A stretch of 50,507 nucleotides of DNA. Origin: Chloroflexota bacterium (GTDB taxonomy: Bacteria; Chloroflexota; Dormibacteria; Dormibacterales; Dormibacteraceae). Positions 31,105 to 35,491 of this stretch are shown here, piece by piece. The number at the start of each line of letters is the position of its first letter. The first letter of the stretch is position 1. The notes beneath the pieces were generated by a model, which saw only the letters and a list, made by a program, of their open reading frames with translations, had not been told where the DNA came from and did no database searches. The translations under genes were made by a program, and so were the position numbers. The stretch covers positions 1 to 50,507 of the forward strand of contig VBHA01000074.1 of the NCBI GenBank assembly GCA_005889495.1, read 5' to 3'.

Positions 31105-32784
31105 ATGGCGCCGAAACCACGCAAGGTGACCATCCGCGGGCGCGAGTATCGGGTGCTTCTTCCAAGCATCCGCGACCCACGTCTTCATGTCGCGGCCGTA
31201 CTGCTCACGCTCCAGGTCCTCGGCCAGACGGTACTCGATTTTCGGCTCTCCATCGCCCAGATCGTCATCTGCCTGGCGGCCGGCGCCTTCATCGAGTTCG
31301 GCTACGAGCTCTTCAAGAACACGACGATCATGTGGCCGGCGAGCGGGCTGCTGACAGGCAACAGCACCGCCTTCATCCTGCGCGTGCCGGGGACCTTCCA
31401 CGGCCAGTGGTGGAGCACGCGGGGATGGTGGATCTTCGTGGGCGTGGTCGTCGTGTCGATGGCCTCGAAGTACCTCATCCGCTGGCGCGGACGGCATATC
31501 TTCAACCCCTCGAACCTCGGTCTGGTGCTCGCCTTCGTCGCACTGGGTCCGCAGTACACCGAACCGCAGGACCTGTGGTGGATCCCGATGGGGCAGTGGA
31601 TGATCGTGACTTACGCCATCCTGATCGGTGGCGGCCTGTTCATCGCCTGGGAGCTCAAGCTGCTCGGCCTGGAGCTGGGCTACATGGCCGCGTTTGCCGC
31701 GTTCACGGCGCTCGCGCTGCTCCCGGTGCCGGACCACTGCATGATCGCGAGCTGGTACCCGACGCCGATGTGCGGACAGCAGCTGTGGCAGGTCCTGGTC
31801 ACCTCGCCGGAGGTGTTGATCTTCGCCTTCTTCATGATCCCCGATCCGCGGACGGTGCCCGACGGCCAGGTGGGCCGGTTCGTCTTCGGCGTCATCGTCG
31901 CCTTTCTCTCCGTGGTCCTCCTGGGCCCGACCACGCTCGAGTTCTGGACCAAGACGGCCATCCTCGCGAGCCTCGTCTTCGCCTGTGGCGGCCGTTTCGC
32001 TCTGGTCCGCCTTCTGGCGCCTCTCGAGGAGGCGGGCGGCGTCCTTCGAGCCGTGCGAGCGCTCGGGTGGAGCGCCCCCGCGGCGCTGGGCATCACCGCG
32101 CTGCTCGTCACATCGCTGCCGCTTTCGGCGGAGCTGTCGCTGCACAGCGTCATCCCGGCGCCAGAGCTTCCTGACGGCACGCGGCCGACGCTAGCCCTGA
32201 CCATCGGGTCCAACGGCCAGGACGTCGGCTCCTGGACTTTCAGGTCGGCGGGCCAGGCGCTGCCACCCGCGAGTGGCACGGCGCCGGCGACGGCCTCGGC
32301 GAGGGTCTGGTTCGTGCCCCCGCTTCCGGGCGTCACGGTCTCCGAGCTCGCGTCCGCATTCGGCTCCAGCCAGGCCGATGCAAACCAGCAGGCGCACGAC
32401 GTCGTCCTCGACCTGATCATCGAGTCAGAGGCTCGGCGGACCCACGACGTGAAGCTCGCGCCGCTGGGGGCTGAAGGCGACGCGCTGACCGAGTTCACGG
32501 ACGTGATCAAGCAGGACGTCGCCGCCGGCAAGAGCGTGCAGAAAACCTATTCGTTCAACCGGATCCAGCTCAACCTCTTCCTGCCCAAGTTCAGCACGCA
32601 GGCCAGCCGGCTCGTCGGCGTGACCCTGTCCGGCACCACGACGCTGACCACACGCGATGCGTCGGGAAAGGTCCTGTCCCAGCAGACACAGCCCTACTCG
32701 AAGAGCTGGGGCCTCGGCTCGCCGAGCGCCGACGGCACCTACCAGCTGATCCAGAACGACTACACGGACCTGAAGCTGGCTTAG
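31105..32784 (+). CDS. RnfD/NqrB-family membrane protein with a C-terminal exported domain
   Basis: 559 residues. The first 330 hold about nine helices resembling RnfD/NqrB (RHIFNPSNLGLVLAFVALGPQY is the NPAALG-like block; MIPDPRTVPDGQVGRFVFGVIVA the late block). Rnf/Nqr subunits carry flavin and move electrons across the membrane coupled to Na+ or H+ flux. No other Rnf/Nqr subunit is nearby, so this is an orphan. From about residue 345 a 210-residue Ser/Thr/Ala-rich exported domain follows that I do not recognise. An orphan electron conduit to an extracytoplasmic partner is possible; inference. Confidence 0.75.
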   Translation: MAPKPRKVTIRGREYRVLLPSIRDPRLHVAAVLLTLQVLGQTVLDFRLSIAQIVICLAAGAFIEFGYELFKNTTIMWPASGLLTGNSTAFILRVPGTFHGQWWSTRGWWIFVGVVVVSMASKYLIRWRGRHIFNPSNLGLVLAFVALGPQYTEPQDLWWIPMGQWMIVTYAILIGGGLFIAWELKLLGLELGYMAAFAAFTALALLPVPDHCMIASWYPTPMCGQQLWQVLVTSPEVLIFAFFMIPDPRTVPDGQVGRFVFGVIVAFLSVVLLGPTTLEFWTKTAILASLVFACGGRFALVRLLAPLEEAGGVLRAVRALGWSAPAALGITALLVTSLPLSAELSLHSVIPAPELPDGTRPTLALTIGSNGQDVGSWTFRSAGQALPPASGTAPATASARVWFVPPLPGVTVSELASAFGSSQADANQQAHDVVLDLIIESEARRTHDVKLAPLGAEGDALTEFTDVIKQDVAAGKSVQKTYSFNRIQLNLFLPKFSTQASRLVGVTLSGTTTLTTRDASGKVLSQQTQPYSKSWGLGSPSADGTYQLIQNDYTDLKLA

Positions 32785-33359
32785 AGAACCGCCGGCGGGA
32801 TCCCGTTCGGCTCGTACGCGGGGGGCGGTTCGATGCCGAAAGTGTCGGCCAGGCGGACGAAGAGGTTGAACAGAGCCGCGTCGTACGCGGCCTCGGCGAT
32901 CTGCTCGTCGGTCCAACCGGCCTCGCGGAGGTCCTGCACCTGCGCGTCCGTCACGCGATACGCGTGTCGGGTGATGGTGGCGACGAACTCGAGCAGGAGC
33001 CGGTGTGGCCGGTCGAGCCCGGCGGCGTCAAGATCCCCCGCGCGCAGCGCTTCCGCGACCTGCCCGTACGTCTCGCCCTGCAACTGCAGGAACCAGCTGT
33101 GCGAGCTGAGTCAATACCTGCACTTGTTGAGCGCCGAGACGTAGGAGGCGATCATCTCGTGCTGCGCCCGGTTCAGCGCGCCGTCGGTGAAATGCAGTCC
33201 CGAGGCGGCGTTGATCGCGGCGAGGAAGTCGGGGCGCAGGCTCATCGTGCGCAGGATGTCGGGCACGACTCCGGCCACGCTGCGTGCCTTGCTGGCGGCG
33301 TAGAGCTCGGCCAGCGGACCTTCGGCCCCGGCCTCGTCGACCATCTTGATCCGGGCCAT
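32781..33359 (-). CDS. AhpD-like/carboxymuconolactone decarboxylase-family protein with in-frame TGA (probable selenoprotein)
   Basis: The two ORF-track pieces 33111-33359 and 32781-33083 are in the same frame, split only by TGA at 33111-33113. Read through, they give a normal 192-residue AhpD/peroxidase-related protein (RTMSLRPDFLAAINAASGL, MIASYVSALNKCRY-U-LSSHSWFLQLQGETYG). The AhpD redox motif is CxxCxxxH; here Cys80 and His87 are present and the TGA (codon 83) falls exactly on the second cysteine, giving CxxUxxxH. A hairpin with a GU-starting loop follows, as in bacterial SECIS elements. AhpD-like selenoproteins are a known class. It follows a truncated globin gene, pointing to peroxide or nitrosative stress. 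A sense-codon error (TGC/TGT) is the alternative. Confidence 0.78.
33072..33110 (-). promoter_or_regulatory. Candidate bacterial SECIS element
   Basis: Directly 3' of the TGA on the minus strand, CTCGC (33105-33101) pairs with GCGAG (33076-33072), and CAGCTG (33099-33094) pairs with CAGTTG (33086-33081), leaving apical loop GTTCCTG whose first base is 18 nt after the TGA. A stacked alternative is CCTGC-AGTT-GCAGG. Both have G within the first two loop positions and fall in the usual 16-37 nt distance window for SelB recognition. Confidence 0.6.
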
Positions 33360-33874: not shown

Positions 33875-34081
33875 ATGAGCGAAGACGAGGTCGTACGCCT
33901 TCGGGCCGAGAACGCGGAGCTGAAACGCCTGCTTCTGAAGCACCAGTGGTCGGGCCTGACGCCGGTCGGCTCGAGCGGTGCCTGCCCCGAGTGCGCCGGC
34001 ACGGCGCCCCCGGTCGGCACCGGCCATCGCCCTGGTTGCGCTCTCTCCGCCGCGCTGCAGGCGCGAAACGTGCGCGCTTAG
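33875..34081 (+). CDS. Small protein with coiled-coil and Cys/His cluster
   Basis: 68 residues. MSEDEVVRLRAENAELKRLLLKH is a short leucine-zipper-like helix. It is followed by ACPECAGTAPPVGTGHRPGCALSAAL, where C-x2-C, His and a last Cys could bind one zinc. The leaderless start behind TATTGT supports expression. Family not recognised; a small DNA-binding or redox-sensing partner of the divergent globin operon is possible but unproven. Confidence 0.6.
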   Translation: MSEDEVVRLRAENAELKRLLLKHQWSGLTPVGSSGACPECAGTAPPVGTGHRPGCALSAALQARNVRA

Positions 34082-34087
34082 CCGAGA

Positions 34088-34093
34088 TATACT
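34088..34093 (+). promoter_or_regulatory. -10 box of MFS leader transcript
   Basis: TATACT predicts a transcript starting near 34100, two or three bases before the ATG of the leader peptide at 34103. The MFS gene itself begins 135 bases further on. Confidence 0.55.
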
Positions 34094-34102
34094 TCGGGCG
34101 CA

Positions 34103-34162
34103 ATGTCATCCATCGCCTCTCGTCCTGTGACGCGCGCGGTGGACGGCGTGCGCATCAGCTAG
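34103..34162 (+). CDS. 19-residue leader peptide upstream of the MFS pump
   Basis: ATG 34103 to TAG 34160-34162 encodes MSSIASRPVTRAVDGVRIS. It begins almost at the predicted transcript start, so it would be translated as a leaderless ORF. The coding sequence ends inside hairpin GTGCGC/GCGCAC (34148-34153, 34162-34167). It resembles leader peptides that let a stalled ribosome control drug-resistance genes, and it contains Arg-Pro followed by a Val/Arg-rich stretch. No homologue is known to me; expression is inferred from layout. Confidence 0.5.
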   Translation: MSSIASRPVTRAVDGVRIS

Positions 34163-34230
34163 CGCACAGCACCAGCCGCTCTCCGCGCAACCACCTCGTT
34201 TGTACGCGCCCGCGCGGGCGCTGGAGAGCG
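34148..34230 (+). promoter_or_regulatory. Translation attenuator masking the MFS Shine-Dalgarno
   Basis: CGCTCTCCGCGC (34177-34188) is complementary to GCGCTGGAGAGCG (34218-34230) over twelve pairs with one bulged T, burying GGAGAG, the Shine-Dalgarno nine bases before ATG 34238. The perfect palindrome GCGCCCGCGCGGGCGC (34206-34221) forms a nested hairpin. A separate hairpin (34148-34167) covers the end of the leader peptide. A ribosome paused at the leader stop would sit against the anti-Shine-Dalgarno strand. Mechanism inferred; complementarity is directly visible. Confidence 0.6.
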
Positions 34231-34237
34231 CGACGAC

Positions 34238-35491
34238 ATGCACCGACTCAGTCCGAAAGCTACCTACGTGACCATCCTCGGCGCCGAGGGCTTCGCCCGC
34301 GGCCTGCTCTTTGTCGCCCTTGTCTCGTACTGGGTCGTGCAGGCGCGCCTGAATCCGCTGCAGCTGGTCCTGCTCGGCACCGCGCTCGAAGGGACGCTGT
34401 TTCTGCTCCAGGTCCCGACCGGGGCGTTTGCCGACGCCATCGGCCGCCGGCCCGCGACCGTCATCGGCTACGCCTTGCTCGGCGCGGGCCTTGGCCTGCA
34501 GGCGTTCACGCGTGACTTCGGATCGCTGCTCGTTTTGCAGGCGATCTCCGGCGGGGCCTGGGCTTTCCTGATCGGCTCCATCGAAGCCTGGATCGCCCAG
34601 CAGGCGGGCACCGACGGCCTCGAACGTGTATTTCTGCGCGGCGGTCAGGCCGGCATGGCGGGTTTGATGGTCGGGCTCTGCATGACCGTGCTGGCCGGGC
34701 AGGTCGACCCACGGCTTCCGATCTTCGCCGGTGGAGCGCTGCTGGTGGTCGTCAGCGCCATGGCCGCGGTGCTGATGACCGAGGAGCCGATCTCTCGTTC
34801 GCCGGTGTCGAAGTCGCGGTGGCGCGAGATCGTCCTGGCTGGCGCGACGGGTGCAAGGCGGATCGGCGCCAACCGGACGCTTTTCGTCCTCGTGCTCGTC
34901 GCCCTCGCGCTCGGGATCTCGAGCGAGGGCTGGGACCGCCTGTACACCGCCCATCTAATGCGCGACCTGCGCCTGGCGTCGGTCGGCCACCTGGCCCCGG
35001 TGGGATGGCTGGCGCTGGTCGGGCTCGCCGAGGGCTGTCTCGGCCTGGTCGCATTCCAGCTGGCGATGCCCCGCGTCGCCGGCAGAGAGCCAGGCGCCTT
35101 GCTTTCAGCGCTCTACGTCTCGAGGGCCGCTCTCATGGTCTGCTTTGCGCTCATCCCGTGGCTGCCTGCGGCGCTGGCGGCCTTCCTCGGCGCCGAGACG
35201 GTCCGGCGCCTCGCCGAGCCGTTGATCGACGCATGGATCGCGCGGGAGACGCCGCAGGAGGTTCGGGCAACTGTGCTCTCCGTCGTGGGGCAGGCGGACT
35301 CGTTGGGACAGATCGCAGCGGGCCCCCTCGTCGGGCTGCTCGGGAGCGTGGCGTCGGTCGCGGCGGCGCTGACTGCGTCCGCGGGCCTGATGCTGCCGGC
35401 CGGGTTGCTGGCCCTGCGGGCCGGGAAGGATGCCGCGCCGGTGTCCGTATCGCCAGACCCGGCGCGGGCTGACCTCAGCCCGCCGGCGTGA
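34238..35491 (+). CDS. MFS efflux transporter
   Basis: 417 residues with twelve predicted helices. TGAFADAIGRRPATVIGYALLGAG is the motif-A loop after helix 2, as in drug efflux DHA-type carriers. The N-terminus MHRLSPKATYVTILGAEGFARGLLFVAL matches a class often annotated as multidrug or tetracycline-like exporters. GGAGAG nine bases before ATG 34238 is the ribosome site and is masked by a hairpin, and a leader peptide precedes it, suggesting drug-inducible translation. Its last 17 bases overlap the convergent nitroreductase gene. Confidence 0.86.
   Translation: MHRLSPKATYVTILGAEGFARGLLFVALVSYWVVQARLNPLQLVLLGTALEGTLFLLQVPTGAFADAIGRRPATVIGYALLGAGLGLQAFTRDFGSLLVLQAISGGAWAFLIGSIEAWIAQQAGTDGLERVFLRGGQAGMAGLMVGLCMTVLAGQVDPRLPIFAGGALLVVVSAMAAVLMTEEPISRSPVSKSRWREIVLAGATGARRIGANRTLFVLVLVALALGISSEGWDRLYTAHLMRDLRLASVGHLAPVGWLALVGLAEGCLGLVAFQLAMPRVAGREPGALLSALYVSRAALMVCFALIPWLPAALAAFLGAETVRRLAEPLIDAWIARETPQEVRATVLSVVGQADSLGQIAAGPLVGLLGSVASVAAALTASAGLMLPAGLLALRAGKDAAPVSVSPDPARADLSPPA

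Follow-up and report, generated by a model that had tools for sequence, protein, structure and literature searches.

Attenuators of the erm/cat type combine a short leader ORF, a hairpin at the end of that ORF and a further hairpin over the Shine-Dalgarno (SD) sequence of a resistance-type gene. In the tet(L)-type leader of Bacillus, a tetracycline-type exporter of the MFS lies behind a leader ORF of ~20 codons, and the leader has an SD. In high-GC bacteria, the uORF of the antibiotic-response gene whiB7/wblC is equipped with an SD and a U-tailed terminator (PMC4128351). Leaderless variants are also known, as polycysteine leaderless short ORFs act as attenuators in mycobacteria (Canestrari et al., 2020, cited via PMC9031893), where leaderless short-ORF candidates have been described (Shell et al., 2015; PMC4633059).

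Here we analyzed the leader of a pump gene of a soil-dwelling Chloroflexota bacterium (class Dormibacteria) within a window of 50,507 nt (contig VBHA01000074.1), which is contig 157 of a 2.73-Mb MAG. The leader resembles the erm/cat type in its short ORF, its hairpin at the ORF end and its hairpin over the SD of a resistance-type gene, whereas its ORF has neither a visible SD nor a partner strand that would capture the mask, and a simulation of stalling, described below, fails. The pump belongs to an MFS subfamily different from that of tet(L). The likeness to whiB7/wblC lies in a uORF before such a gene; the SD and U-tailed terminator of that system were not seen in the window leader, where a search for a transcription terminator found none. 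As in the mycobacterial leaderless attenuators, a short ORF would open a leaderless message and precede the gene under control. In contrast to their polycysteine ORF, that of the window has no Cys run, precedes an efflux pump and leaves the masking of the SD to a separate stem. The features of the locus, all on the + strand, are as follows.

33875-34081, +: 68-aa gene with Cys motifs, outside the block; 86% identical in the same-genus genome G006, 60-78% in most others
34087-35474, +: block with promoter-like box, leader and pump, inserted here or deleted elsewhere (comparison with G006)
34088-34093, +: candidate -10 box TATACT, 9 nt 5′ of the leader ATG (sequence)
34103-34162, +: candidate (near-)leaderless leader ORF of 19 codons, ATGTCATCC...ATCAGCTAG, peptide MSSIASRPVTRAVDGVRIS and stop
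34111-34141, +: hairpin within the leader ORF, outer arms CATCGC/GCGGTG (folding)
34148-34167, +: stop-codon hairpin GTGCGC-ATCAGCTA-GCGCAC, arms 34148-34153 and 34162-34167 (folding)
34177-34184, +: mask strand CGCTCTCC, the 5′ strand of P1; perfect 8-bp inverted repeat that folds onto the SD
34206-34221, +: inner hairpin P3, GCGCCC-GCGC-GGGCGC, immediately 5′ of the SD
34223-34230, +: 3′ strand of P1, GGAGAGCG, containing the SD GGAGAG (34223-34228)
34238-35491, +: intact TetA(P)/Tet(40)-like MFS efflux pump of 417 aa (Pfam MFS_1, 3.5e-13; NCBIfam TetA(P), 1.9e-61)

The TATACT box, the ORF, the stop-codon hairpin and the pairing of mask and SD, to which the preliminary description had drawn attention, are all present at these positions by sequence and folding. 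The mask strand begins 15 nt downstream of the leader stop, and 9 nt separate the pump SD from the pump ATG at 34238. No SD is seen before the leader ORF, and MSSIASRPVTRAVDGVRIS contains no run of codons for one amino acid and no other codon bias. An Rfam search returned no meaningful match at the window leader. In folding, the pump SD has an unpaired probability of 0.008-0.015; the ribosome site is indeed hidden, as had been claimed, and strongly paired even at 0.015. In the MFE structure of 34100-34290, the partner of the SD is not CGCTCTCC but a CCTCTC inside the leader, so that two masks compete.

A leaderless start of the leader ORF is plausible in this genome, where starts of that type are common. 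A TANNNT motif lies 5-8 nt upstream of the start in 9 of the 35 window genes, against 0.15 expected, the commonest spacing being 8 nt. The motif is nearly absent from the rest of the 40 upstream bases of these genes and has a density of 0.0007 per base in the window. The spacing of the leader itself, TATACT-N9-ATG, is 1 nt above the 5-8 nt range of the other leaderless-type genes of the window. The earlier remark that a leaderless ORF would be an unusual sensor is fair, yet such a sensor is not unprecedented, because leaderless short-ORF attenuators are known in mycobacteria (PMC9031893).

When the upstream regions of ~97 distinct pump homologues were scanned, a conserved leader emerged at four other Dormibacteria pumps, and a search of 110 genomes with R1, a covariance model of this leader, added a fifth locus, in G007, where the leader is intact and the pump gene has decayed. 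Strong R1 matches in the 110 genomes occur only before these pump genes, at the five loci L003, L004, L005, L008 and L147 (in G026, G035, G014, G061 and G007, respectively). At each, a TAnnnT box (TAGGAT, TACGAT or TAACAT) stands 7-8 nt before the ATG of a 14-codon ORF with the C-terminus AGDL, a hairpin surrounds the stop codon of this ORF, the SD follows inside the outer stem of the fold, and the pump start codon is TTG. The four relatives that were folded separately form a three-way junction with the SD in its outer stem, and the unpaired probability of the SD in the relatives is 0.001-0.04. The five hardly differ in the stop-codon repeat GGGAG-N9-CTCCC. Within the ORF, a second hairpin forms in competition with the one at the stop codon and shows a single A-U to G-C change. 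In the relatives' alignment, which was fitted to the model and is biased towards the structure, 96.6% of structure cells pair. Changes on both sides occur at three pairs; with slid partners the count is 0-1, in shuffles it is 1.4, and three is reached by 33 of 500 shuffles. In L005, TTT/AAA of the masking stem is swapped for GGA/TCC, an exchange obscured by a 4-nt gap in the MAFFT alignment. Variable sites of the relatives' ORF are spread evenly over the codon positions (5, 5 and 4), suggesting that the RNA is conserved and the peptide not clearly so. No curated RNA family of Rfam was meaningfully matched by the related loci.

Related Dormibacteria pumps therefore do carry a conserved leader, which shares the layout of the window leader and not its sequence. 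Element order and spacing are the same, the ORF extending from -137 to -83 in the conserved leader and from -135 to -76 in the window, and the window leader folds into the same shape with its own sequence, a likeness to be read with the caveat that GC-rich DNA forms hairpins easily. The stop-codon hairpin occupies the place of the relatives' GGGAG-N9-CTCCC, an inner hairpin is found in the relatives at the position of P3, and hairpin 34111-34141 is a counterpart of their H0 by analogy of position only. In contrast, R1 did not match the window leader up to E=5, sequence alignment to the relatives brings the mask strands into only loose agreement, and the five loci belong to a pump clade other than that of the window pump. 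Conservation and compensatory changes, which the preliminary description had named as a check, are thus found, the latter in small number, at five other Dormibacteria loci, whereas the window leader has no sequence relative. Since the window pump also has a different position in the tree, the agreement in layout may be a coincidence.

Other homologues were inspected as well. Rubrobacter pumps (L088, L094, L113, L105 and L100) have a conserved TTGACG-N18-TACGAT promoter ~180-235 nt upstream, followed after ~7 nt by micro-ORFs (VLIPL, MIIPS and MLIL, each ending at a stop codon) whose start switches between GTG and ATG at a fixed distance. The pumps of Anaerolineae and Ktedonobacteria are also preceded by short conserved ORFs, but these were rejected because they resemble the ends of the genes further upstream.

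The gene behind the leader had been described as an MFS efflux pump, and its sequence indeed places it among the relatives of tetracycline exporters. The TetA(P) and Tet(40) models cover almost its whole length, but the scores of 208 bits (curated cut-off, 750) and 180 bits (cut-off, 800) fall far below the thresholds, so we class this predicted exporter as TetA(P)-like. Its identity to the TetA(P) proteins of clostridia is ~30%. No homologue above 41% identity, the best value obtained, was found in the class, the phylum, the family of the best hit, plasmids or the genome collection. In the tree, the pump groups apart from other Dormibacteria pumps, on a long branch whose exact placement is unsure.

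Comparison with the same-genus genome G006 (locus L010) defines the boundaries of the pump block. DNA homology ends at 34086 and resumes at 35475, and in G006 the 68-aa gene is followed by ~24 nt and a convergent F420-related gene, with no pump block between them. The corresponding site of G014 lacks the 68-aa gene as well. Promoter, leader and pump thus make up a single block, which was either acquired here or lost in other genomes. A boundary at 34087 also argues for a promoter of the pump's own and counts against co-transcription from the upstream 68-aa gene, which is nevertheless possible. When the window leader DNA was sought in the 110 genomes of the class, only short matches of ~20-55 nt were found elsewhere. 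The 68-aa protein itself, with an acidic, Leu-rich N-terminus and CPEC and GHRPGC motifs, has no Pfam or NCBIfam match; its gene occurs in varied contexts across many Dormibacteria, and its site in the window has the look of a place of nested insertions. Further upstream in the window, an AhpD/peroxidase-related protein is encoded on the minus strand (32781-33359) with an in-frame TGA (33111-33113) exactly in the redox motif NKC-R-Y-U, and is likely a selenoprotein. In G006 the ORF is likewise broken at NKCRY, and SelB and tRNA-Sec models score over their cut-offs in most members of the genus; in G000, SelB matches are only partial and no tRNA-Sec match exceeds the cut-off.

We read 34088-34237, with about even confidence, as the 5′ leader of the TetA(P)-like pump gene, comprising a near-leaderless ORF and a fold that hides the SD, and having arrived together with its own promoter as one block. 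Quite possible, and second in likelihood to a cis-acting leader, is a structured 5′ UTR of the ordinary kind: the promoter would serve the pump, the short ORF would be there by accident, and the hairpins would be no more than 70% GC leads one to expect. The fold energy of the whole leader region is unremarkable (z -1.14), the opening energy of the SD is matched in 11.7% of shuffles (8-19% across set-ups), and equal hiding of the SD arises in 4.7% of shuffled leaders, so that masking departs only mildly from what shuffles give. The opening energy exceeds that of 31 of 33 other window genes, with a shuffle p of only 0.19 in that set-up, and the remaining two are more masked than the pump. There is no family-wide excess of SD masking (p ≤ 0.1 in 14.6% of 96 homologues), and no homologue shares the leader sequence. 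An accidental origin fits less well with the ORF, since an ATG ORF starting 5-9 nt after TATACT arises in 1.8% of shuffles (4.4% with GTG allowed), or with the exact 8-bp upstream complement to the SD, which 1.1% of shuffles contain. Taken singly, these elements go modestly beyond chance, and all of these chance figures are post hoc. The retention of the same layout before related pumps also speaks against an ordinary UTR.

Classical attenuation of the erm type, in which a ribosome stalled by a drug on the leader would change the RNA fold and make the pump SD accessible, had been the mechanism first proposed, and the resemblance of the pump to a drug exporter is in its favor. We placed a ribosome footprint on each leader codon and recomputed the pairing of the SD, using thermodynamic folding only. 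With the ribosome on codons 1-6, an alternative pairing of 34133-34145 with 34176-34188 partly frees the SD, to 0.43 at most and varying with transcript end and footprint; 85% of shuffled leaders release the SD at least as much. On codons 7-20 it leaves the mask closed (SD unpaired at 0.1 or less), and none of the stall positions in the four relatives scanned releases the SD (all ≤0.05). A counterpart of the 2:3 strand, by which an erm-type leader would capture the mask, is missing from the window leader, and the mask, 15 nt beyond the leader stop, is at or past the reach of a terminating ribosome. Given these negative scans, thermodynamic folding does not support an erm-like step from stalled ribosome to open SD, and we consider this mechanism improbable. 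Simple stalling would not, in this model, explain how the SD is freed; kinetic folding, re-initiation, a trans factor or a ligand may release it. Even less probable, indeed very unlikely, is a reading of the inverted repeats as operators in the DNA, bound by a regulator protein, and not as elements of the RNA. The near invariance of the stop-codon repeat in the five relatives would suit an operator, but the masking stems still pair despite changes on both sides, the window arms differ in sequence as those of a shared operator should not, and a family search of the tested neighbors of the window pump found no regulator.

The region is probably a cis-regulatory leader that keeps translation of the pump low. 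Under this reading, the pump gene would have arrived as one block carrying its own promoter, and transcription would most likely start at the leader ATG or 1-2 nt before it, so that the short ORF would be translated from an (almost) leaderless message. The three-way-junction fold would hide the pump SD and keep default translation of the pump low in the cell, and the relieving signal may be translation of the leader or an inhibitor of translation. It is also conceivable, although rather doubtful, that TetA(P)-like pumps of high-GC soil lineages repeatedly and independently gained leaderless leader ORFs, which would couple expression to leaderless (70S) initiation, with the SD held in a three-way junction that opens otherwise than by stalling and refolding. 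These ORFs have 19 codons in the window, 14 at the five other Dormibacteria loci and 4-5 in Rubrobacter.

If real, the element would be a control device of a drug pump in a poorly cultivated lineage, with a sensor ORF that lacks any leader. The five loci would likewise represent a conserved RNA element that is not in Rfam and is directly testable. Such an arrangement would suggest that this genome, in which leaderless initiation is common, uses it for regulation as well as for default expression.
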